DNA of 64,000 bases from Cohnella laeviribosi DSM 21336 (lineage in GTDB: Bacteria; Bacillota; Bacilli; Paenibacillales; Paenibacillaceae), in assembly GCF_000378425.1 (NCBI RefSeq), contig NZ_KB899811.1, forward strand, positions 1 through 64,000. Direction: 5' to 3'. Within the stretch, counting starts at the first letter, position 1. Each line of letters starts with the position of its first letter. The position numbers and the translations under genes are program-made. A model generated the notes under the pieces. It did no database searches, had not been told where the DNA came from, and saw nothing but the letters and a program-made list of their open reading frames with translations. Shown here in pieces: positions 2,229 through 16,218 of this stretch.

Positions 2229-2269
2229 GCGGAAAGCCGGCCCGGTTCACCCGGAAGCCGGCTTTCCGC
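2229..2269 (-). terminator. Terminator of the YheC/YheD operon
   Basis: A perfect 12-bp inverted repeat (GCGGAAAGCCGG at 2229-2240, complement at 2258-2269) starts immediately after the stop codon at 2270-2272 of the last ATP-grasp gene. There is no long T-run, so this could be a structural end rather than an efficient terminator. Confidence 0.65.
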
Positions 2270-3469
2270 CTAGGTCGATTCGATCGGCAGGTCGATCGGG
2301 CTCGCTTGCTGGTCGTCCGGAACCTTGCGGTCCGCTTCGGAGGCGCTTGCTTCCTCCGCCGCGCCGCGGAGGTTGCGCTTCTTGCGGTAAACCCAGAGCG
2401 CGTACTCCAGCGGGCGCGTGATCGCTTGCCGGTAAACGGTTCGTTCTCCCGCCCGGATGAACACCTCCCGGGCCGGCTTCGGATTGACTTCGAGCAACCA
2501 TACGCGGCCGCTGCGGTCAATGGCCAAATCGAGCGCCAGCTCGCACAGCGCGCCGTAGGAAGACTCCAGATGGCGGGCGACATCGACGCCGAGCTTCTCC
2601 GCCGTCCGGCGGATTTGCGCGATCTCTGCCTCGCTGCCCACCCACTGCTGCAGCAGGCGGTTCATCGGCGCCGCTTCCCCGCCGCCGTGCAGATTGGACG
2701 TAATGCTGCGGGCCGGGCCGATGCGCCCCGCGCAGCCGGTCACCTCCCACTCGCCGGAGCCGTTTTTCTGCACCAGCATCCGGTAATCGTGCACCCGGCC
2801 GTTCGGCAGCTTGATGTTGAGGCCCTGCTGCGCGATATAGCGGTCGCCTTTCGTCGTCCATGCGCGCAGCGCGGCGGCCAACTGATGGCGCGTCACCCGC
2901 TTGGGCGCCACAATGCGGCGGCGGCGGTCGCGTCCCTGCAGCAGAAATCCGCTCGGCTGCCGTTCGATTCGCAGAATCCCCCGTCCGCCGGTGCCGTTGA
3001 TCGGTTTCAGATAGACGAGCGGAAACCTTTTGAGCAGCAGCAGGACATCGTCCGCCGACTGAAACGGCCTGGTGACCGGCAAATGCTTGCGGAACGCCGC
3101 GACTTGGGACAGCGTCCGGTAAACGGTCCATTTGTTGCGCAGCGGCCGGTTGAGAAACGTCAGGTGGCCGTATTTGCGGCGAAAGGCGAGCAGCTGCTCA
3201 AAGCGCTTGGAGCGCTGGATGCGGCAGCGGTCGTAGATCATGTGCGGGAAGCGGACCCGCCTGCGGCGCCAGCTTCGCGTATCCGGGCTGTATACCATCG
3301 CATGGATGCGGTTTGACCGTTCCTCCACGTCCTGCGGGGTGAAGACGAAGACGTCGAGGCCGAGCCGCTGGCCGGCAGCGGTCATCTTTTCGTAAACGGA
3401 TCGTTCCTCCAGCGCCTTTTTGTCGTTCAAGTAAAGCGTTAGAATTCCCAGGACGGGCTGCTTGGACAC
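2270..3469 (-). CDS. YheC/YheD-family ATP-grasp protein, paralogue 5 (operon end)
   Basis: A 399-residue, short-architecture (YheC-like) member starting with GTG at 3469, seven bases after GGAGG. The N-terminal part (LGILTLYLND) is followed by an ATP-grasp fold: a glycine-rich loop (YLKPINGTGGRGI, about residues 150-165) and a metal/phosphate site near the end (DLAIDRSGRVWLLEVNPKP, about 325-345). The family was named from B. subtilis YheC and YheD, which are endospore coat-associated. ATP-grasp enzymes ligate a carboxylate to a nucleophile through an acyl phosphate, but the substrate of this family is not established. It is the last of five consecutive paralogues, 40 bp after the previous one. 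The last about 30 residues are polar and acidic. Confidence 0.9.
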   Translation of the reverse strand: MSKQPVLGILTLYLNDKKALEERSVYEKMTAAGQRLGLDVFVFTPQDVEERSNRIHAMVYSPDTRSWRRRRVRFPHMIYDRCRIQRSKRFEQLLAFRRKYGHLTFLNRPLRNKWTVYRTLSQVAAFRKHLPVTRPFQSADDVLLLLKRFPLVYLKPINGTGGRGILRIERQPSGFLLQGRDRRRRIVAPKRVTRHQLAAALRAWTTKGDRYIAQQGLNIKLPNGRVHDYRMLVQKNGSGEWEVTGCAGRIGPARSITSNLHGGGEAAPMNRLLQQWVGSEAEIAQIRRTAEKLGVDVARHLESSYGALCELALDLAIDRSGRVWLLEVNPKPAREVFIRAGERTVYRQAITRPLEYALWVYRKKRNLRGAAEEASASEADRKVPDDQQASPIDLPIEST

Positions 3470-3509
3470 AAGCTCACCTCCGGCAGGGAACGGGTTTTGC
3501 CGTCGAATG

Positions 3510-4691
3510 TCATCGGACAGTCCCTTCTTTGGTTTGTCGCAAGCGTCCGTACAAATATTGGCTGTATTGAAAAATTCGCTCCAGCGATTTCCTGCGGATG
3601 TGCGGTTCGTCGAATTTCATCGGTTTGGAATTCGCTTCGAAAAACCACACGTGGCCTGTCGTATCCACCCCCAGGTCCATCGACATTTCCCCGAGCCGGT
3701 GTTTGGACGAACGCTCGATCTGCCGGGCGAGAATGAGAGCGGCGTTGCGCGCTTGGGCGAGCACTTGCTGCGCCCTTTCGCGGCCGAAGACGGAAACCAG
3801 CAGCTTCTCGGGCTCGTCGATCTCGCCGCCCCGGGGAACATGCGTCGTAATGCTGGCGTTGCCGGCCACCCGCGCGCCGATTCCGGTCAACGCCCAATTG
3901 CCGGTCTCGTTCTTCTGCACGAGCGCCCTCAGGTCGAAGGGACGGTCGTTGACCGAAGCGAGGGCGATGCCCTGCTGCGCGATATAGGGTTCTCCGAGCG
4001 CGTCGGTTTGCGCCTTGATGCGTTCCCACAGCTTTTGCAGCGTCGAGCAGCGGTAGGTCCGGCTTCTTTTTTCGTTCTGAATTTGGAGGCGATAGGGCAG
4101 ATGCTTTTCCGGCTGGGTCTTGACCGTCATAATGCCGACTCCCGCCTTGCCGCGTATGGGCTTCAAATAAAGGAGAGAGTGGCGCTTGAGCATCGACGTC
4201 AGCACCTGCGGCTCCGTCAGCCGCTTCGTTTCCGGAATGTAAGGCTGCGTTGCCTTCGATTTGTTCAGCCATTGAAACAAAGACCACTTGTTAAAAAAAC
4301 GGCGGTTAAACAGCTTGACGCCCGGATATTTGGAGATCAGCATCAGTTTCTTCCGGACCCGCGGCAGCCTCTCGTCCTCCCGTTGCGGAATGCGGTTATA
4401 CACGACATGGGGCTTCGGAAAATACCCCTTGACCCAAACCTCGCGTTCGCGGCGGTACGTGTAGCCAAGCACGCGGCTGCGGCCCAGCTTCAAGTTCCGG
4501 ACCGTCACGACATAGGCCAAATAGCCGAGCTCCCGTCCGGTTTCGATCAAGTCGGCAAAATTGTGCCGGTTGCCCCGGAACAGCTGGATATCGTCGTCGA
4601 TCGTCAGAATGGCCAGCACCGGCTTGCCTTCGGGAACCGATTCCGTCTTGGCGCTTTCAGTCAGCGGCGCAGATGAAGTGGCGGCGTTCAT
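3510..4691 (-). CDS. YheC/YheD-family ATP-grasp protein, paralogue 4
   Basis: A 393-residue, short-architecture member. A hydrophilic leader of about 25 residues precedes the family start (KPVLAILTIDDD). Conserved sites are the nucleotide loop LYLKPIRGKAGVGIMTV and the C-terminal MSMDLGVDTTGHVWFFEANSKP. Its ATG (4691) overlaps the stop of paralogue 3 by 4 bp, and GGAAGGAAG lies upstream. It keeps all the ATP-grasp positions I can check. By family it is probably expressed in the mother cell during coat assembly; that inference rests on the B. subtilis homologues. Confidence 0.9.
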   Translation of the reverse strand: MNAATSSAPLTESAKTESVPEGKPVLAILTIDDDIQLFRGNRHNFADLIETGRELGYLAYVVTVRNLKLGRSRVLGYTYRREREVWVKGYFPKPHVVYNRIPQREDERLPRVRKKLMLISKYPGVKLFNRRFFNKWSLFQWLNKSKATQPYIPETKRLTEPQVLTSMLKRHSLLYLKPIRGKAGVGIMTVKTQPEKHLPYRLQIQNEKRSRTYRCSTLQKLWERIKAQTDALGEPYIAQQGIALASVNDRPFDLRALVQKNETGNWALTGIGARVAGNASITTHVPRGGEIDEPEKLLVSVFGRERAQQVLAQARNAALILARQIERSSKHRLGEMSMDLGVDTTGHVWFFEANSKPMKFDEPHIRRKSLERIFQYSQYLYGRLRQTKEGTVR

Positions 4692-6064
4692 GAGGATTCT
4701 TCCTTCCGGCGGAATTTGCTGAGATACAGGCAGTGATCCAGGATATATTCCAGCGAGGCGCGTCCCTGCTCCCGCAAAGCCGGATGCTTGAAGATCGACC
4801 GGCCGGGCTTGGCGTTCGCTTCGAACATCCAGACCTCGCCGTCTTGGTCGATGCCGATATCCAGACCCAGCTCGCCCAGCGTATGGTTGTAATTGCGCTC
4901 GATCGCCGCCGACAGTTTGACCGCCACCGCCTTCGCCTCTTGAAGCACGGTCTGCGCCCGGCTTCCGAACGTCCGGTTCAGCGCCTGCTCGGGCGTCATC
5001 AGCGAGCCGCCGTTTTTAATATGCGTGGTGACGCTGCCCCGGCCGGCTTTCTTGGCGCCGATTCCGGCGACGACCCACCGGTTGTTGCCGTCTTTGTGCA
5101 TGTGGAACCGAAAGTCGATCGGGCATTTGTCGATTTCGATCAGCCGGATGCCTTGTTGCGCGACGTAACTCGCCAGTCCGCTGCCGTGCCGCGCCCGCAG
5201 CATCTTCATCAGGCTGTTGAACGAGGTAAACCGGAGCAGCACGTTTCCCGAGCCTTTCCGGTACCGGACGAAGTATCCCTTTCTCGGATGGTAGGTCAAT
5301 CGGTAGATGCCGACTCCGAGGCTGCCGCTCGTCGGTTTGTAATACAGAAAGTGATGCTTCTCCAGCAATTCCTTCAGCTGCTCGGGCGTCGGGTTGTTGA
5401 CCGATTCCGGCAGATGCTGCAGCGCTTCGGGGTCCTTTTCCAGCAGGGAATAGACGTCCGATTTGTTGAAAAAGCTCCAGTTGAAAAAAGGAATTTGCCT
5501 GCTTACGAAGCGCTCGCGAAGCGTCGCGATCGCCGAACCGTTCTCCGCCCGCCTGCTCGGAAGCCGGTTGTACACGACATCCGGCAGCGGGACCACCTTG
5601 CGGATCCAGCCTCCGCCGCCGTCCAGAAACCAGCCGTACACCGTTTCCTGTTGCCAGTTGATATCCCTCGGGGTGAAGGCGAAAAAGTAGCCTTTTTTCT
5701 GCCCAAGCGCAAGAAGCTGCTTGATAAATCCCGTTCGCAAGCCGAACGGAGCGGACGCGGAACCGTTCGAGTTGTCGGTCAAAATGCCGATTAACGGACC
5801 GAGCTGAATTTCCTCGTCGTCGTTGGTCAAATAAACGATTCCCGTTTTCGGTATCCGCACCGAACGCCTGAGCCCCGCCGACAAATAGACGTGGTTGCCT
5901 TTGCGCTTGACGGTGCGGACCTTCGCGGGGACGACGTCCCGGCCGAGCTTGACGTTAATCGATTTGCGTCCGTTCAGCTTGAGTTGCTTCGCGAGGGGGC
6001 TGGAGAGCCAGACGATTCGCTCCGGTTGCTGCGTGAAGTGAACGTTACACAAGGTCAAACTCAT
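4688..6064 (-). CDS. YheC/YheD-family ATP-grasp protein, paralogue 3 (long form)
   Basis: A 458-residue, long-architecture (YheD-like) member. About 95 extra N-terminal residues form a small beta-rich domain (IVWLSSPLAKQL... to EEIQLGPLIGIL) before the shared region. The ATP-grasp part has YYKPTSGSLGVGIYRL and GELGLDIGIDQDGEVWMFEANAKPG. The start at 6064 has GGGAGGG six bases upstream. It overlaps paralogue 2 by 20 bp and paralogue 4 by 4 bp, which indicates one transcript with coupled translation. Confidence 0.9.
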   Translation of the reverse strand: MSLTLCNVHFTQQPERIVWLSSPLAKQLKLNGRKSINVKLGRDVVPAKVRTVKRKGNHVYLSAGLRRSVRIPKTGIVYLTNDDEEIQLGPLIGILTDNSNGSASAPFGLRTGFIKQLLALGQKKGYFFAFTPRDINWQQETVYGWFLDGGGGWIRKVVPLPDVVYNRLPSRRAENGSAIATLRERFVSRQIPFFNWSFFNKSDVYSLLEKDPEALQHLPESVNNPTPEQLKELLEKHHFLYYKPTSGSLGVGIYRLTYHPRKGYFVRYRKGSGNVLLRFTSFNSLMKMLRARHGSGLASYVAQQGIRLIEIDKCPIDFRFHMHKDGNNRWVVAGIGAKKAGRGSVTTHIKNGGSLMTPEQALNRTFGSRAQTVLQEAKAVAVKLSAAIERNYNHTLGELGLDIGIDQDGEVWMFEANAKPGRSIFKHPALREQGRASLEYILDHCLYLSKFRRKEESS

Positions 6065-7226
6065 GAATTACCCTCCCAGATGGTCGAAGCAAGATATATC
6101 GGGCATAAGCAAGCGGCCGCTCTATGGCTGTCTGAGCCGCGGCGGCGCCGGCGCATGCCATTGCGGCGCGCCCGGGTTTGGCGTTTGCTTCCAGAAACCA
6201 GATTCGGCCGGAGCGGTCGATGCCGAAGTCGAGTCCAAGCTCGCAGAACCGTCCGAAAGCTTCCTCGAGCCGCTTGATGACGGCCGCGGAAACGCGCCGG
6301 ATTTCTTGCAGCATCGATTCGCATTCCTTCTCTCCGAAGCGCGACGCCAGAAACGTCCGCGCATGGCGGGGGACGCCGCCGCCGTGCAGGTTGGCCGTCA
6401 CATTGCCGGTCCGGCCGGCGCGGACCGCCATGCCCGCCAGCGTCCACCTGCCCTTCCCGTTCCGTTGCGCAAGCACGCGCAGGTCGAACGGATTGCCGTC
6501 GGCATCCGACAGCGAAAGAAGGGGCTGCATGATGTAAACTCTGCCGCCGATCCAGCGGTGAAGCCGCTCGATCGCCTCCTGGACGCTTAGGTTTTCGAGG
6601 CGGAAAGGGGCGTTGGCGGAGGTGCGTCCGCGGATCGTTACGGCGCCCTCGCCTGCGGCGGAACGGATCACCGCCGCGACCCTCCGGCCGTGCGAGCCGT
6701 TCGAAGGCTTGAGAAACACGGCTCCCCCATGAAGATCGAGCCAATCGGCCAACGCTTTTTTCCCCTTGTACAAAGCCGTCGGAGGAAGACGCGGAGCCAG
6801 AAGCGGATCGCGCGCCAAGATCCGGAACACCTCGGCTTTGCCGGGGAGCCGTCCGTTCAGCCGAACGACGGCATGCGCGCCCAGCATCCGGTTCAAGCTG
6901 CTACGGAACCGCCGCCGCTGCTCCGCATTGCCGGGCCAGGCACGGTCGTAGACGAGCGAAGGAACGGCGCGCTCTTCCCTGTGCCAGCCGCCTTTCGCCT
7001 GTGCCCATCTCCAGGCCTGAACGGACCGGCGGTCCGCATTCCAGGTCCAGGGCGCGAAGGCAAACACGTCGAGTCCGTAGCGCGGGGCCGCGCGCATGAG
7101 GCGGCGTATGAAATCCGACTCGGCGAAGGGAGGCGTCCCGTCGCGTTCGCAGATGAGTACGCCGAGTTCCCCGCGCTTTTCCGGCATGCCCGCCGGCAGG
7201 TTAGAAACCGGACAAAAATCGGGCAT
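6045..7226 (-). CDS. YheC/YheD-family ATP-grasp protein, paralogue 2 (altered glycine loop)
   Basis: A 393-residue, short-architecture member. The loop that reads KPxxGxxGxGI in the four sister proteins reads KPSNGSHGRRVAAV here, so the last glycine is Arg. The C-terminal site is intact (CELGLDFGIDRSGRIWFLEANAKPG). The protein is Ala/Arg-rich compared with its neighbours. The start at 7226 lies inside the 3' end of paralogue 1 and has only a weak ribosome-binding site; ATG at 7187 (MPEKRGELGVLIC) aligns better with the family N-terminus and is a real alternative. ATP use may be changed or lost. Confidence 0.85.
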   Translation of the reverse strand: MPDFCPVSNLPAGMPEKRGELGVLICERDGTPPFAESDFIRRLMRAAPRYGLDVFAFAPWTWNADRRSVQAWRWAQAKGGWHREERAVPSLVYDRAWPGNAEQRRRFRSSLNRMLGAHAVVRLNGRLPGKAEVFRILARDPLLAPRLPPTALYKGKKALADWLDLHGGAVFLKPSNGSHGRRVAAVIRSAAGEGAVTIRGRTSANAPFRLENLSVQEAIERLHRWIGGRVYIMQPLLSLSDADGNPFDLRVLAQRNGKGRWTLAGMAVRAGRTGNVTANLHGGGVPRHARTFLASRFGEKECESMLQEIRRVSAAVIKRLEEAFGRFCELGLDFGIDRSGRIWFLEANAKPGRAAMACAGAAAAQTAIERPLAYARYILLRPSGRVIHEFDLV

Positions 7227-8568
7227 ATTGAATCATCATCCGCACGGAAGGGCGGATTTTCCCCTCGTTTAATGGTGTGTTGTCTTTTTTGGACGGTTTG
7301 GAATTCACCTCAAGCAGCCAGATCTTTCCGCCGGTGTCGATTGCAAGATCAATCCCCAGTTCCCCAAAGTGCGCCGGAATGTGCGTGTCGATGCCCCGCG
7401 AGATTTCCAGCGCGGCCCGCGAAAGCCGGGCCAACGCGTCTTTCCGGTAGGCGGCGGGCAGATTGGATTTGGCCACGGCTTCCCGGACGGTGGCGAGCGT
7501 TCCGCCCCGCGCCAAATTCGATACGTAATGCTGATTGCCCGCGATCCGGCCGACGATGGACGTCACCGTCCATTTGCCGCCGGCATTTTTTTGCGTAAGC
7601 GCGCGAAAATCGATCGGGCGTCCGTCGCTGTCGATCAGCGTCAAGCCCTGCTGGATCAAATACCGCACCGTCTTCATCTTGGCGGCCATCGACGAGTAAA
7701 ACTTGAGCAGGCTCGGGTACGTCTGCTTTTTCGTGCCGCCCGCCGTCGTGTATAAAGCCTGCCATCCGTCCGGGCCTTGCCGCGACAGGCGGATAATGCC
7801 TTTGCCGAGGCTTCCCCTAACGGGTTTCAGGAAGAGGACCGGATAGCGGGAACCCATGCTCTTCAGCGTCGCATATTGGCGCAGCAAGTGGGATTCGGGC
7901 AGGTAACGCCGCAGCGCCGCATCGTTTCCGAGCGCCTCGAACACTTCGGATTTGTCGAGGAACTTTTCGTTGAATACGTGCGCGTCGTACCGTTGCTTGA
8001 TTTCCTTCATGAACCGCTGCACGGCGGGCAGGTTTTCCAGCTTCCGGGTGGTCAGCCGGTTGTTCACAATGTCCGGGGCGGGCAGCGATTTCCGTTGCCA
8101 GCCGGAATTGTAGATCCAGCCCTCCACCCCGTCATGGCCGGATCCGATGCCGGACGGAGTGAAGAAATATACGAAAGCGCCCTCGTTCCGGCAAGCGTAG
8201 GCAAGCTCCCGGCAAAACATCGTCATGTTTCCGAAAGGCTTGTCGGGCTGCTGCGGGAAGTCTCTGCTGACCAAAACGCCGATCAAAGGTCCAAGGGCGA
8301 GCGTCCGGGAAGCCGGGCGGTACTGCAGCCTTAGCGGAATTCCGGAAAAAATCCCCATCCGATTGGCCAGCGAATGATTGATGCGCAGACCGTCATATCG
8401 CGGCACGGACAAGACGGTTACGGTTTGCCTGAATGAACCGAATTTTAGCGTCAGTTGCTGCTGGGCCGGGATTTTGGCTTTCTTCATCACGGATTCCCCC
8501 AGCATCAGAACGTCTTCGGCCAGTATGCCGGAGCTGATGACCTGGACGTCGATTTTCGGGGTGGACAT
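7201..8568 (-). CDS. YheC/YheD-family ATP-grasp protein, paralogue 1 (long form, operon start)
   Basis: A 455-residue, long-architecture (YheD-like) member, first gene of the five-gene run. Residues about 1-92 form the extra N-terminal domain. After ALGPLIGVLVSRD comes the shared region, with the nucleotide loop LFLKPVRGSLGKGIIRL and the terminal site LGIDLAIDTGGKIWLLEVNSKPS. The ATG at 8568 is preceded by GGAAGGAG at good spacing. Related B. subtilis genes are sporulation-controlled. On the minus strand I see a possible CATATGAT box about 90 bp upstream, too weak to name a sigma factor. Confidence 0.9.
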   Translation of the reverse strand: MSTPKIDVQVISSGILAEDVLMLGESVMKKAKIPAQQQLTLKFGSFRQTVTVLSVPRYDGLRINHSLANRMGIFSGIPLRLQYRPASRTLALGPLIGVLVSRDFPQQPDKPFGNMTMFCRELAYACRNEGAFVYFFTPSGIGSGHDGVEGWIYNSGWQRKSLPAPDIVNNRLTTRKLENLPAVQRFMKEIKQRYDAHVFNEKFLDKSEVFEALGNDAALRRYLPESHLLRQYATLKSMGSRYPVLFLKPVRGSLGKGIIRLSRQGPDGWQALYTTAGGTKKQTYPSLLKFYSSMAAKMKTVRYLIQQGLTLIDSDGRPIDFRALTQKNAGGKWTVTSIVGRIAGNQHYVSNLARGGTLATVREAVAKSNLPAAYRKDALARLSRAALEISRGIDTHIPAHFGELGIDLAIDTGGKIWLLEVNSKPSKKDNTPLNEGKIRPSVRMMIQYARFLSGF

Positions 8569-8661
8569 ACATCGGTTCTCCTTCCACCGTGTCGAATGTC
8601 TAAGCGCGCGGCGCCCTTAGGTTTCTTTCCCGGGGGCATACGAGAATACTCCATCATATGA

Positions 8662-8673
8662 GGACATCTGTCC
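8662..8673. promoter_or_regulatory. Short perfect inverted repeat in a divergent promoter region
   Basis: GGACATCTGTCC is a perfect 5-bp inverted repeat with a 2-bp centre. It sits between the minus-strand ATP-grasp operon and the plus-strand methyltransferase gene, 9 bp before a candidate -35 box. It could be an operator half-pair, but a 12-bp palindrome can occur by chance. Confidence 0.3.
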
Positions 8674-8681
8674 GTCGGTGA

Positions 8682-12879: not shown

Positions 12880-13626
12880 ATGCGATCCGACGGAAGGCAG
12901 GCCCGCGAATTGCGGCCGTTTGCCGTAACGCTTCATCCCAATAAATTCGCGGAGGGCTCGGTGCTCATCGAGATGGGCGACACGAAAGTCTTGTGCACGG
13001 CCACGGTGGACGAGAAGGTTCCCCCGTTTCAGAAAGGCCAGGGCAAAGGCTGGATTACGGCCGAATATTCGATGCTGCCCCGTGCGACGCAGACGCGCAA
13101 TCCCCGGGAGGCGAGCCGGGGCAAGCTTAGCGGGCGCACGATGGAGATTCAGCGTCTCATCGGCCGCGTGCTGCGGTCCGTCGTCCGGCTGGATGCGTTG
13201 GGCGAACGGACCATTACGCTGGATTGCGACGTCCTGCAAGCGGACGGAGGGACCCGGACCACTTCGATCACCGGCTCGTTCATCGCGCTTGCGCTGGCCG
13301 TACATAAGCTGTCCCAGACCGTATCTTTTCCCGTCTATCCGATCACCGACTATCTGGCTTCGGTCAGCGTCGGGCTGCTGCAGGGACAAACGCTGCTCGA
13401 CCTGAATTACGAAGAGGACTCCAAGGCGCAAGTGGACATGAACGTCGTCATGACCGGCTCCGGAGCGTTCGTTGAGATTCAGGGGACCGGCGAGGAATCG
13501 CCCTTTACGCGCGCCGAGCTGGACGGCCTGCTGGGGGTCGCCGAAGAAGGCATCCTGAAGCTGATCGAGATGCAGCGGGAAGTGCTGGGCGAAGCGGGAC
13601 TTCGAATCGGGACGGTGCAGGCATGA
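12880..13626 (+). CDS. rph: Ribonuclease PH
   Basis: A 248-residue phosphorolytic 3'-5' exoribonuclease that trims tRNA 3' ends, using phosphate and releasing nucleoside diphosphates; the family forms hexameric rings. The RNase PH core is evident: [34 protein letters not shown], then [40 protein letters not shown] and [19 protein letters not shown]. The start is ATG at 12880, preceded by AGGAGGA. It overlaps rdgB by 4 bp. The 150 bp after gerM show no clear terminator. Confidence 0.97.
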
Positions 13627-14276
13627 TCGGCGCGGGGGACACGTTGCTGGTCGCGACGCGCAACCGGGGCAAGACGCGGGAGTTCCGCGCCGCGTTCGCG
13701 ACGCTCGGCATCGAGGTCAAGGATTTGAACGAGATCGGGGAACTCCCGGAAATCGCGGAGACGGGGACGACCTTTTACGAGAATGCGCTGATCAAAGCGC
13801 GCGCGGCGTCGGCCGCCGCCGGGCTTCCGGTGTTGGCCGACGACTCGGGCCTGTGCGTCGACGCGCTCGGCGGCGCGCCGGGCGTCTATTCGGCGCGGTA
13901 TGCCGGCGAGGGCGCTTCCGACGCGGACAACAACGCGAAGCTGCTGCGGGAGCTGGCGGCCGCAGGCGCCACGGTGGACGCGGCTTCGCTGGGGGCGGAG
14001 AAAGCGCCTGACGGTGCGAAGCTGCTCAGTCCCGCGCGTTTCGTCAGCTCGCTCGTGCTGTACGAGCCTGACGGGGACCGCATTACCGCGGCCGAAGGCA
14101 CGGTCGAGGGTGCGATCATCGACCGGCCCGCCGGAGCCGGCGGGTTCGGCTACGATCCGCTCTTCTGGCTTCCGTCCTTCGGCAAGACGATGGCGGAAAT
14201 CTCGCTTGAGGAAAAAAACGCGATCAGCCACCGGGGGCGTGCGCTCAGGAAGCTGCTTGCGCAGCTTGAGCGGTAG
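13623..14276 (+). CDS. rdgB: XTP/dITP diphosphatase (RdgB/HAM1 family)
   Basis: A 217-residue house-cleaning enzyme that hydrolyses dITP, XTP and ITP to monophosphates and pyrophosphate, keeping deaminated purines out of nucleic acids. Family motifs: [14 protein letters not shown] at the N-terminus, [23 protein letters not shown] (metal and base site), [20 protein letters not shown], and [10 protein letters not shown] near the end. It is about 20 residues longer than typical, from a loop around residues 110-135 ([19 protein letters not shown]). It is coupled to rph by ATGA. Confidence 0.96.
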
Positions 14277-14300
14277 AGACGATATGGAAATCCCTACGGG

Positions 14301-14366
14301 ACGAAAGGACCGCGCTGAGGATGCGGCGCTTTGGGCGCGGCTCTCGCGGGGTCCTTCGTTGTTTTT
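14301..14366 (+). terminator. Terminator after gerM-rph-rdgB
   Basis: ACGAAAGGACC (from 14301) pairs with GGTCCTTCGT (to about 14359), with one bulged A and a GC-rich inner hairpin, followed by TTGTTTTT. It reaches the stop codon of the convergent asparagine synthetase gene. Confidence 0.65.
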
Positions 14367-16218
14367 ATACGATCGAGACGCGGTAGCGCCGCAGCCAAAA
14401 ATCGAACTGCAGCAAATACGCGAACAGCTGCGGGGCCGACATCAGCTGTCCGAACCACGGCAGATGGGAGCGCGCGTCGGCGGTCGCCAGCAGCCGGCGG
14501 ATATGCGCCTTGTCGATCAGCGGAAGCAGCGGCGAGCCGGCGTCTTCGAGCCGCTCGGACAGCAGGGAGCGGACGGTCTCCAGGTATGCGGGATTGTGCG
14601 TTTTCGGGTAGGGGCTCTTTTTGCGGTACAGGACGTCGTCCGGCAGCACGCCCGCCAGCGCGCGGCGCAAAATGCCTTTTTCGCGGCCGCCCGCCGTTTT
14701 CAGCGTCCAGGGAATGTTGAACACGTATTCGACGAGGCGGTGATCGCAGAACGGAACCCGCACTTCGAGCCCCGCCGCCATGCTCATCCGGTCTTTGCGG
14801 TCCAGGAGCGTCGGCATAAAGCGCGTGATGTTCAGATAGGACATCGTGCGCATCCGCTGCGCGTCCTCGTCTTCCCCCGGCAGCTTCGGCACTTCCGCCA
14901 GCGCCTCGGCGTACCGGTCGGAGACGTATTCCAACGGACGAATATGGCCCTTGAGCTCGGGCGAGAGCACGCTTTCCCTAAGATCGGTTGCCAGCGACCA
15001 CGGGAACGTCGACGCCGTCAGCGCCTCCCGGCGGTGAAACCAGGGATAGCCTCCGAACACTTCGTCGGCCGCTTCGCCGGAGATGGCGACGGTGGCATCC
15101 TTCTTGATCTCGCGGCAGAACAAGTACAGGGACGCGTCGATGTCCGCCATGCCGGGGTAATCCTTGGCCAAAACGGCAGTCTCCAGCGCCTCCACCAGCT
15201 CGGGCGTATCGAACTGGACCAGATGATGAGCGGTGCCCAGAAATTCGCTCATTCGCTTGATCCAGGGCGCGTCCGAATTCGGCTGAAAATCGTGCGCGGT
15301 AAAGTGCTTGTCGTTGTCCACGTAGTCGACCGAATACGTATGGACCCGGCCTTGCCCCGTTTCGGCATAATAACGGACGGCAAGCGCCGTGAGCGCGCTC
15401 GAATCGAGGCCGCCGGAGAGCAGCGTGCAGACGGGCACGTCGGAGACGAGCTGCCTTCGCACCGTATCGTCCAGCAGTTCGCCGACTTTCTCGGCCGTTG
15501 CGCGCTCGTCGTCCTCATGCGGCCGGCTCTTGAGCCGCCAGTAGGCGGTAATCCGCATGCCGCTGCGGTCGTAAGTCAGACAGTGCCCCGGCTTCAGCTC
15601 CGATATGCCCCGCCATATGCCGACGCCCGGCGTCCGCGCGGGGCCCAGGGCAAACAGCTCGGCAAGACCTTCGCCGTCCACTTCGGCCGGAACGTCCGGG
15701 TGCGCCAGTATCGCCTTCGGTTCCGAACCGAACAGGAGCCTGCCTTCTTCCCGCCGATAAAAAAGCGGCTTGACGCCAAGCCGGTCCCTCGCCATGAACA
15801 GTTGTTCCTCGTCCGTCCGCCATATCGCGAAAGCGAAGATGCCGTTCAATTTTTCCACGCAGGCGGGTCCCCATTCCACATAGGCCAGCAGCAGCACTTC
15901 CGTATCGCAGGTCGTGCGGAAGGCGTAGCCCAGCCGTTCAAGCTCCTTTCGCAGCTCGAGCGCATTGTAGAGTTCCCCGTTGTAGACGATCACGCAATCC
16001 CGATCTTCCGCGTATTTGGTCGGACGTACCATCGGCTGGGCGCCGTTTGCGGGATCGATCACGCTCAGCCTGCGGTGGCCGAATGCGCAGTGCTTGGTCA
16101 GCCAGGTTCCCGACGCATCGGGCCCGCGCAGCTGCATGGTCTCCGTCATCTTTTCCACAATGTTCGCATGTTTGGTCAAATCTTCATTCCAGTCGATCCA
16201 ACCGGTAATGCCGCACAT
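14365..16218 (-). CDS. asnB: Asparagine synthase (glutamine-hydrolysing), AsnB/AsnO type
   Basis: A 617-residue enzyme making asparagine from aspartate, glutamine and ATP. The start is ATG at 16218, giving MCGITGW, because Cys2 must become the N-terminal nucleophile of the class II glutaminase; GGAGAGGG lies nine bases before it. The glutaminase domain (1 to about 210) has RRLSVIDP and YNGELYN. The synthetase domain has the pyrophosphate loop LLSGGLDSSAL (about residue 260) and SGEAADEVFGGYPW. The length matches the B. subtilis AsnO type (about 614), a sporulation-linked paralogue; I cannot tell AsnB from AsnO here. Single gene, convergent with rdgB. Confidence 0.95.
   Translation of the reverse strand: MCGITGWIDWNEDLTKHANIVEKMTETMQLRGPDASGTWLTKHCAFGHRRLSVIDPANGAQPMVRPTKYAEDRDCVIVYNGELYNALELRKELERLGYAFRTTCDTEVLLLAYVEWGPACVEKLNGIFAFAIWRTDEEQLFMARDRLGVKPLFYRREEGRLLFGSEPKAILAHPDVPAEVDGEGLAELFALGPARTPGVGIWRGISELKPGHCLTYDRSGMRITAYWRLKSRPHEDDERATAEKVGELLDDTVRRQLVSDVPVCTLLSGGLDSSALTALAVRYYAETGQGRVHTYSVDYVDNDKHFTAHDFQPNSDAPWIKRMSEFLGTAHHLVQFDTPELVEALETAVLAKDYPGMADIDASLYLFCREIKKDATVAISGEAADEVFGGYPWFHRREALTASTFPWSLATDLRESVLSPELKGHIRPLEYVSDRYAEALAEVPKLPGEDEDAQRMRTMSYLNITRFMPTLLDRKDRMSMAAGLEVRVPFCDHRLVEYVFNIPWTLKTAGGREKGILRRALAGVLPDDVLYRKKSPYPKTHNPAYLETVRSLLSERLEDAGSPLLPLIDKAHIRRLLATADARSHLPWFGQLMSAPQLFAYLLQFDFWLRRYRVSIV

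Follow-up and report, generated by a model that had tools for sequence, protein, structure and literature searches.

An old, ordered set of five YheC/YheD-like ATP-grasp genes in Cohnella laeviribosi and its probable link to the spore coat

Five consecutive genes at the start of contig C4 (NZ_KB899811.1) of Cohnella laeviribosi DSM 21336 encode YheC/D-like ATP-grasp proteins of Pfam family PF14398. They probably make up the ATP-grasp part of a set of amide ligases, specific to sporulation and linked to CotE, by which coat material is built or modified. The stretch analyzed, referred to as the window, comprises 64,000 nucleotides, and its position 1 is base 1 of C4. Genes are named A to E in order of transcription, and residues are numbered as in protein C. 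The reading is based on the gene arrangement, on the antiquity and order of the genes, on their ATP-grasp residues, on a promoter motif, on co-distribution with SpoIVA, and on linkage to cotE and a second type of ligase in relatives. The features are as follows (aa, amino acids; bp, base pairs).

8652-8681, minus strand: putative sigma-K-like promoter 5' of A (TCACC, 15 bp, TCATATGATG), a match to CACC-N16-CATANNNTR
8568-7201, minus strand: gene A, predicted ATP-grasp ligase, long form with N-terminal domain; 455 aa, PF14398 250.9 bits, clade A (position 1)
7226-6045, minus strand: gene B, predicted ATP-grasp ligase, short form; 393 aa, PF14398 220.6 bits, clade B (position 2)
6064-4688, minus strand: gene C, predicted ATP-grasp ligase, long form; 458 aa, PF14398 275.6 bits, clade C (position 3)
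4691-3510, minus strand: gene D, predicted ATP-grasp ligase, short form; 393 aa, PF14398 271 bits, clade D (position 4)
3470-3509, no strand: D-E gap of 40 bp, site of a GNAT acetyltransferase gene in some relatives; none here
3469-2270, minus strand: gene E, predicted ATP-grasp ligase, short form, GTG start; 399 aa, PF14398 267.9 bits, clade E (last position)
2229-2269, minus strand: strong hairpin just past the stop codon of E, resembling a terminator but lacking a distinct T run

Order and age of the five genes

The five open reading frames (ORFs) lie head to tail on the minus strand. A overlaps B by 26 bp, B overlaps C by 20 bp and C overlaps D by 4 bp; D and E are separated by the 40-bp gap. 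All five proteins score far above the PF14398 gathering cut-off of 26.8 bits (220.6 to 275.6 bits). The coordinates and spacing agree with those of the first-pass annotation, which had also recognized the order long-short-long-short-short and an extra N-terminal domain in the long forms. The N-terminal domains of A and C are homologous (hhalign probability 98.8 between clades A and C). Homology of the N-terminal extension of the D clade to the domain of A or of C is unsupported (hhalign probability 7.6 and 18.5).

Phylogenetic reconstructions place each operon position in a clade of its own. An 82-protein tree was calculated with the quick mode of IQ-TREE from 18 loci picked for regular order, three of them outside Bacilli. 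Position follows clade in this tree with the minimum possible 4 changes, and a single branch separates each position (Shimodaira-Hasegawa-like approximate likelihood ratio test support 98, 93, 91, 99 and 97); the split of B plus E from A plus C plus D has support 100. In a FastTree reconstruction of 272 proteins, 265 fall into five clades that track position, allowing for missing genes. Support at class level in this tree is lower for clades A (0.79) and B (0.49). Inside the family (Paenibacillaceae) clade support is 0.98-1.0, the B clade there including one protein from outside the family. Three single genes of C. laeviribosi, the distant fifth gene of locus L036, and the genes in second place in L055, L058 and L062, none of them a B gene, account for the other seven.

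Because each operon position forms its own clade, both inside and outside the class, A to E are, as judged from these trees, diverged and old ordered paralogs and not a recent amplification. Their divergence, proposed at the outset, is borne out by a pairwise BLASTP identity of 26-33%. The head-to-tail arrangement could have arisen by recent tandem amplification into redundant copies, an explanation that is scarcely credible given that identity and five old clades in a fixed order inside and outside the class; the tree contradicts it, barring an artefact that mimics synteny. The genes do not form one recent clade with near-identical active sites. The clades are old, position-specific and marked by clade-specific residues, and the pathway idea of the first-pass annotation is not refuted.

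Gene order was compared at several distances from the window, in samples that lean toward clusters with a good C gene. All 37 genomes of the genus, C. laeviribosi included, match PF14398 (9 to 22 matches each) and have a B-type match, partial in one. The family sample contains 30 genomes, again including C. laeviribosi. A strong C-type match, nearly whole length and at 58-82% identity, is present in 28 others (the copy of G049 has three internal stops), and G043 is without one. Clusters were retrieved from 20 of these 28; with the window they give 21 loci, in 13 of which the pattern is A-B-C-D-g-E (g, GNAT gene) and in 8 A-B-C-D-E. The class sample, 40 mostly top-scoring genomes of the 106 outside the family that are C-positive, gives A-B-C-D-g (17 loci), A-B-C-D (9), A-B-C-D-g-E (5) and nine other patterns. 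Outside the class, 14 mostly high-scoring genomes of the 37 in the same phylum with a match give A-B-C-D-g (4 loci) and ten other arrangements. The ordered set is thus shared inside and outside Bacilli, and its commonest unit is A-B-C-D, often with the GNAT gene and sometimes with E. An E-clade gene is found in six loci outside the family. B is missing from L040, L056 (the same as L128) and L120, all of which keep A, C and D. Gene C is the best conserved of the five.

Some loci show further variation. B diverges much faster than C: relative to L010, a locus from the same genus, identity is 51% for B and 82% for C. In L021 a second, inverted C-D pair (13397-15900) lies beside a complete A-B-C-D-g-E operon. 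L158, from the same phylum outside the class, has a single run of ten ATP-grasp genes whose assignment to A to E is not clear-cut.

The yheC-yheD genes of Bacillus subtilis belong to the same Pfam family as A to E, and there are two of them where the window has five. We take B to be yheC and C to be yheD, from near relatives of B. subtilis and from the gene sizes. A set of 80 named loci, chosen as best matches to a Bacillus C protein with no sampling of Paenibacillaceae, and in which only genes within the retrieved flank are visible, gives A-B-C-D (64), A-B-C-D-g (1), A-C-D (2) and B-C only (13). All 13 B-C-only loci are from Bacillus sensu stricto (B. velezensis, B. siamensis, B. atrophaeus, B. 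halotolerans, B. changyiensis, the B. pumilus group and two further species), and window genes B and C share clades with this pair. Because these loci keep only B and C, the yheC-yheD pair looks, from the sequence comparison, like the remnant of a larger set and not like the ancestral state, so that a local expansion from a two-gene ancestor is not borne out.

Association with sporulation and coat genes

C-type genes were profiled in 200 class genomes with a threshold of E <= 1e-45. SpoIVA is present in 148 of these genomes, CotE in 148, the C-type gene in 122, and PF14395, the phiEco32-like COOH-NH2 ligase type 2, in 118. The C-type gene occurs in 122 of the 148 SpoIVA-positive genomes and in 0 of the 52 SpoIVA-negative ones; all 118 genomes with PF14395 are SpoIVA-positive. 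Fisher probabilities are 9e-29 for the C-type gene with SpoIVA and 1e-9 for the C-type gene with PF14395 among SpoIVA-positive genomes, both inflated by relatedness. The family member G043 is without SpoIVA, CotE, the C-type gene and PF14395.

PF14395 is a Pfam family separate from PF14398 and has a glutamine-synthetase-like fold. It has no match in the control genome of B. subtilis. In relatives it is an amide-ligase partner clustered with the ATP-grasps: outside Bacilli, and in some families of Bacilli, the ATP-grasp cluster also holds CotE and the PF14395 ligase (CotE assigned by PF10628 at E 1.9e-26 to 2.4e-61, five tested; PF14395 at E 7.2e-88 to 5.7e-99, three tested). In at least 114 of the 118 class genomes cotE shares the strand of the ligase and precedes it within 8 kb. 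The matched domains are less than 1.8 kb apart in at least 79 genomes and 1.8-8 kb apart in at least 35. Twenty of the 35 wide-spacing loci were retrieved. Each of them has two or more ATP-grasp genes separating cotE from the ligase and, in the same cluster, a D-type ATP-grasp, which precedes the ligase in 2 (L168, L171) and follows it in 18; the names A to D in these clusters are best profile matches, not tested orthology. The C. laeviribosi copies lie outside the window on contig C18, where cotE (L165:7376-7987) is followed by the sole PF14395 gene of the genome (longest ORF L165:8035-9684).

Of 60 other retrieved loci, 38 have the GNAT gene, placed either between D and E or immediately behind D. 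It occurs in 7 of 37 genus genomes, always between D and E, and was not found in the genome of C. laeviribosi (G000).

A single promoter candidate precedes A. CACC-N16-CATANNNTR has its sole exact match in the window here, where 0.04 are expected from shuffling. When the spacer may be 15-17 bp long, the motif precedes A in 19 of the 21 loci from the family (0.03 expected), in 25 of 39 from other Bacilli (0.08 expected) and in 35 of 67 named loci that begin with A (0.16 expected). These sets overlap: as judged by length and position, each of the pairs L056/L128 and L059/L100, at the least, is one and the same contig. The pattern CATACRNT is enriched upstream of A (14 of 60 loci, shuffle mean 2.1) and might mark another site, of sigma-E-like type, that overlaps the sigma-K-like one. 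A sigma-E-type matrix scanned over the region upstream of A gave no excess over shuffles, 29 of the 60 loci exceeding the mean of their own shuffles, and in the named loci a -10 pattern of sigma-E type is no commoner than chance (6 of 67, 6.95 expected). The last base of the -10 element in the window is G where the sigma-K consensus has A. Otherwise the element, with its 15-bp spacing, fits the pattern of sigma-K promoters, which have a five-base -35 and a ten-base -10 element 14-16 bp apart according to PMC517825. At the other end, the predicted folding energy of 2205-2272 is -41.7 kcal/mol (z -5.1), a stability that none of 200 shuffles reaches, and the hairpin at 2229-2269 is the likely end of the operon.

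The comparison yields a list of partners, namely cotE, the PF14395 ligase, GNAT and A to E, together with the promoter. The first three, not being in the window, were out of sight of the first-pass annotation. CotJA and SpoVR genes are neighbors in some relatives (one representative each), and genes downstream in two loci (L150:10561-11811 and L153:2969-4189) are weakly similar to CotS-family coat proteins, under the family cut-off.

Predicted chemistry and competing explanations

K201, K243, D317, R319, D402, E415 and N417 are conserved at 98-100% over 265 proteins of the five clades and are present in all five window proteins. As in the ATP-grasp superfamily, they are presumably ATP and metal ligands. 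Position 348 is N in A (60/60), B (55/55) and E (27/27) and H in C (62/62) and in the ungapped D sequences (59/59). H321 (95%) and K338 (100%) are specific to C, the other clades having mostly L and R. The same clade-specificity test found no position particular to clade B. In the alignment, then, the clades share the catalytic core and are told apart by other positions.

This conservation bears on the possibility that the proteins are structural components of the coat that keep the ATP-grasp fold without catalysis. PMC7911427 describes B. subtilis YheD as forming a SpoIVA-dependent shell around the spore, with strong self-interaction and unknown function, as a structural protein might. Near-invariant ATP-grasp residues in five clades and distant taxa make such a role very improbable. 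PMC7352945 lists YheC as a coat protein that binds ATP and whose function is unknown. The comparison offers a reason why functions for the pair are listed as unknown: what B. subtilis, the model organism, carries seems to be a remnant.

AlphaFold models were made of C (pLDDT, the predicted local distance difference test, 93.5) and B (89.3) only, and a RimK/LysX-like fold is predicted for both. The C model is closest to RimK (5zct; Z 22.6, 2.9 Å over 275 residues) and the B model to ArgX (3vpb; Z 23.4, 2.8 Å over 271 residues), rows less than 1 Z apart being ties. The best neighbors of the two models are RimK, LysX/ArgX and glutathione synthetase. TTL/TTLL6 stand lower in both lists, and PsnB is among the neighbors of C. 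The N-terminal domain of C (1-86) is barely covered by the structural matches. Foldseek E-values place D-Ala-D-Ala ligases first (2.8e-11), whereas the Z ranking places RimK first; neither order is read as indicating the substrate. A sequence search of the PDB gave weak matches only, the best to glutathione synthetase (E 0.027).

The window proteins thus have in common with RimK, LysX/ArgX, glutathione synthetase and TTL/TTLL the predicted fold (B and C) and the core ATP-grasp residues. They differ in the extra N-terminal domain of A and C and in their multi-paralog operon, and identity in the structural rows is only 13-20%. NCBIfam scores of A to E are far under the family cut-offs for known ATP-grasp ligases: against the RimK family TIGR00768, E scores 15.7 bits where the cut-off is 143.4, and A to D are not listed at E 0.1. 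By these profile and model comparisons A to E would work like RimK but are not members of the RimK family. Graspetide ligases (PsnB, microviridin-type), from the ribosomally synthesized and post-translationally modified peptides, are likewise ATP-grasp ligases, acting on peptides. No recurrent neighboring ORF of at least 60 aa was recognized as a graspetide precursor, and shorter ORFs were not searched.

Since the nearest structural neighbors extend a carboxylate of a protein, peptide or carrier with amino acids, the favored form of the CotE-linked ligase set is one that modifies coat proteins with peptides or builds a peptide-like coat component. We infer that A to E would be transcribed as one unit, late in the mother cell, from the single sigma-K-like promoter. 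Each would be an active ligase that uses ATP to activate a carboxylate for coupling to an amine, the chemistry of RimK, LysX/ArgX, glutathione synthetase and the tubulin ligases. They may work in a single pathway with the cotE-adjacent PF14395 ligase and, in many relatives, with the GNAT acetyltransferase. The substrates would be amino acids or short peptides, which would be attached to coat proteins, or built into a peptide-like component, in the CotE-dependent layer. The stepwise building of a peptide-like coat component had been suggested from the window itself. Its enzymatic and coat-related parts gain from the retained ATP-grasp residues, from cotE in relatives, from the sigma-K-like promoter and from the co-distribution with SpoIVA. 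A strictly linear chain fares worse, and the gene content of relatives argues against it: some loci retain A, C and D without B, and B-C stand alone in the Bacillus sensu stricto loci.

Several observations weigh against the proposed ligase set. Shared ancestry inflates the co-distribution. PF14395 is lacking in 12 of the 122 C-positive genomes, and a C-type match at threshold in 8 of the 118 with PF14395, so the parts are separable. As 18 of the 148 SpoIVA-positive genomes are without both, sporulation does not require the C-type gene or PF14395. The C. laeviribosi operon (C4) is apart from its cotE-ligase pair (C18), and in family members assembled as a single contig, G048 for example, more than 1 million bases separate the C gene from the ligase. 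The sigma-K-like motif is found in 0 of the 13 named loci that begin with B. Unlike the window operon with this motif, B. subtilis yheC and yheD are reported to be under sigma-E with SpoIIID (PMC517825). Sugar enzymes flank one cluster, L157, outside the class, where a family 2 glycosyltransferase and a nucleotidyl transferase lie close downstream (14106-16140) of ATP-grasp genes accompanied by cotE and PF14395.

The L157 flank fits another explanation, in which the ligases add amino acids to sugar carboxylates of a spore-surface polysaccharide or its precursors, not to coat proteins. The Pfam matches point the same way. After PF14398, the next-best family of A, B, C and E is PF14397, a sugar-transfer associated ATP-grasp, which is above cut-off for A only (3.6e-08; E 7.2e-06, C 0.00012, B 0.0036). 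Among 15 annotated representatives of recurrent neighbors in the class, a subset of the recurrent clusters, there is no glycosyltransferase or sugar-nucleotide enzyme; the recurrent partners are cotE, the amide ligase and GNAT. L157 leaves the standing of the polysaccharide explanation as it was, because it is one of 14 outside-class loci and has cotE and PF14395 among its ligase-side neighbors. We consider a polysaccharide substrate unlikely.

A soluble product is also conceivable. The mother cell could make a peptide-like metabolite or spore small molecule without covalent modification of the coat, with some of the ligases using free amino acids or a carrier as LysX/ArgX or glutathione synthetase do. 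Those enzymes rank near the top of the structural neighbors, and several ligases with a GNAT resemble a small biosynthetic route. The linkage to the coat gene cotE and the description of B. subtilis YheD itself as a shell around the spore (PMC7911427) speak against a soluble product, which is quite improbable.

A bolder form of the CotE-linked set can be imagined and is put forward tentatively, as a possibility that we rate as rather doubtful. ATP-grasps of distinct specificities, the cotE-side ligase and a capping GNAT would together be an ancient non-ribosomal peptide-tagging machine of the outer coat of sporulating Bacillota, building an isopeptide on proteins of the CotE layer, and would have been overlooked since B. 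subtilis kept only yheC-yheD. If the system does modify coat proteins, a widespread post-translational chemistry specific to spores would bear on spore resistance. Mass spectrometry of coats would be affected as well, since unexpected isopeptide adducts can be missed.

The general idea that PF14398 has a role in spore-wall or capsular protein modification is probably not new, because it is reportedly predicted both in a 2009 amidoligase survey and in the Pfam text for the family. The survey, by Iyer and colleagues, covered ATP-grasp, glutamine-synthetase-like and acetyltransferase-like domains. No published description of the multi-gene operon or of its cotE link was found in the literature searched.

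Other family members and flanking genes

The whole genome has nine PF14398 matches, which are A to E and four singles (C5:170073, C7:133930, C16:49555 and C12:52931), one of them with an in-frame stop. The three intact singles form their own branch outside clades A to E in the 272-protein FastTree. Paenibacilli are described as having another YheC/D gene between gyrA and gyrB (PMC5627462).

Upstream of A, many loci have a divergent DUF445 gene (31 loci) and a YlbF/YheA-like gene (27 loci), neighbors that match those of the yhe region of B. subtilis. The window has a methyltransferase and a metallo-hydrolase gene in their place. No window gene is among the 30 largest flank clusters of the relatives' loci.

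Downstream of E, on the minus strand, a phosphodiester glycosidase gene (PF09992, 575-1651) and an ORF for a coiled-coil protein (1648-2076) overlap by 4 bp; the latter has a likely membrane segment, as judged by eye. Membership of the operon was weighed for this NAGPA gene and the adjoining coiled-coil ORF and rejected: they are absent from the flank clusters just mentioned, and the strong hairpin intervenes. At the contig end lies a minus-strand ORF with a transposase helix-turn-helix domain (PF01527, 1-205), truncated by that end; an insertion element lies there.

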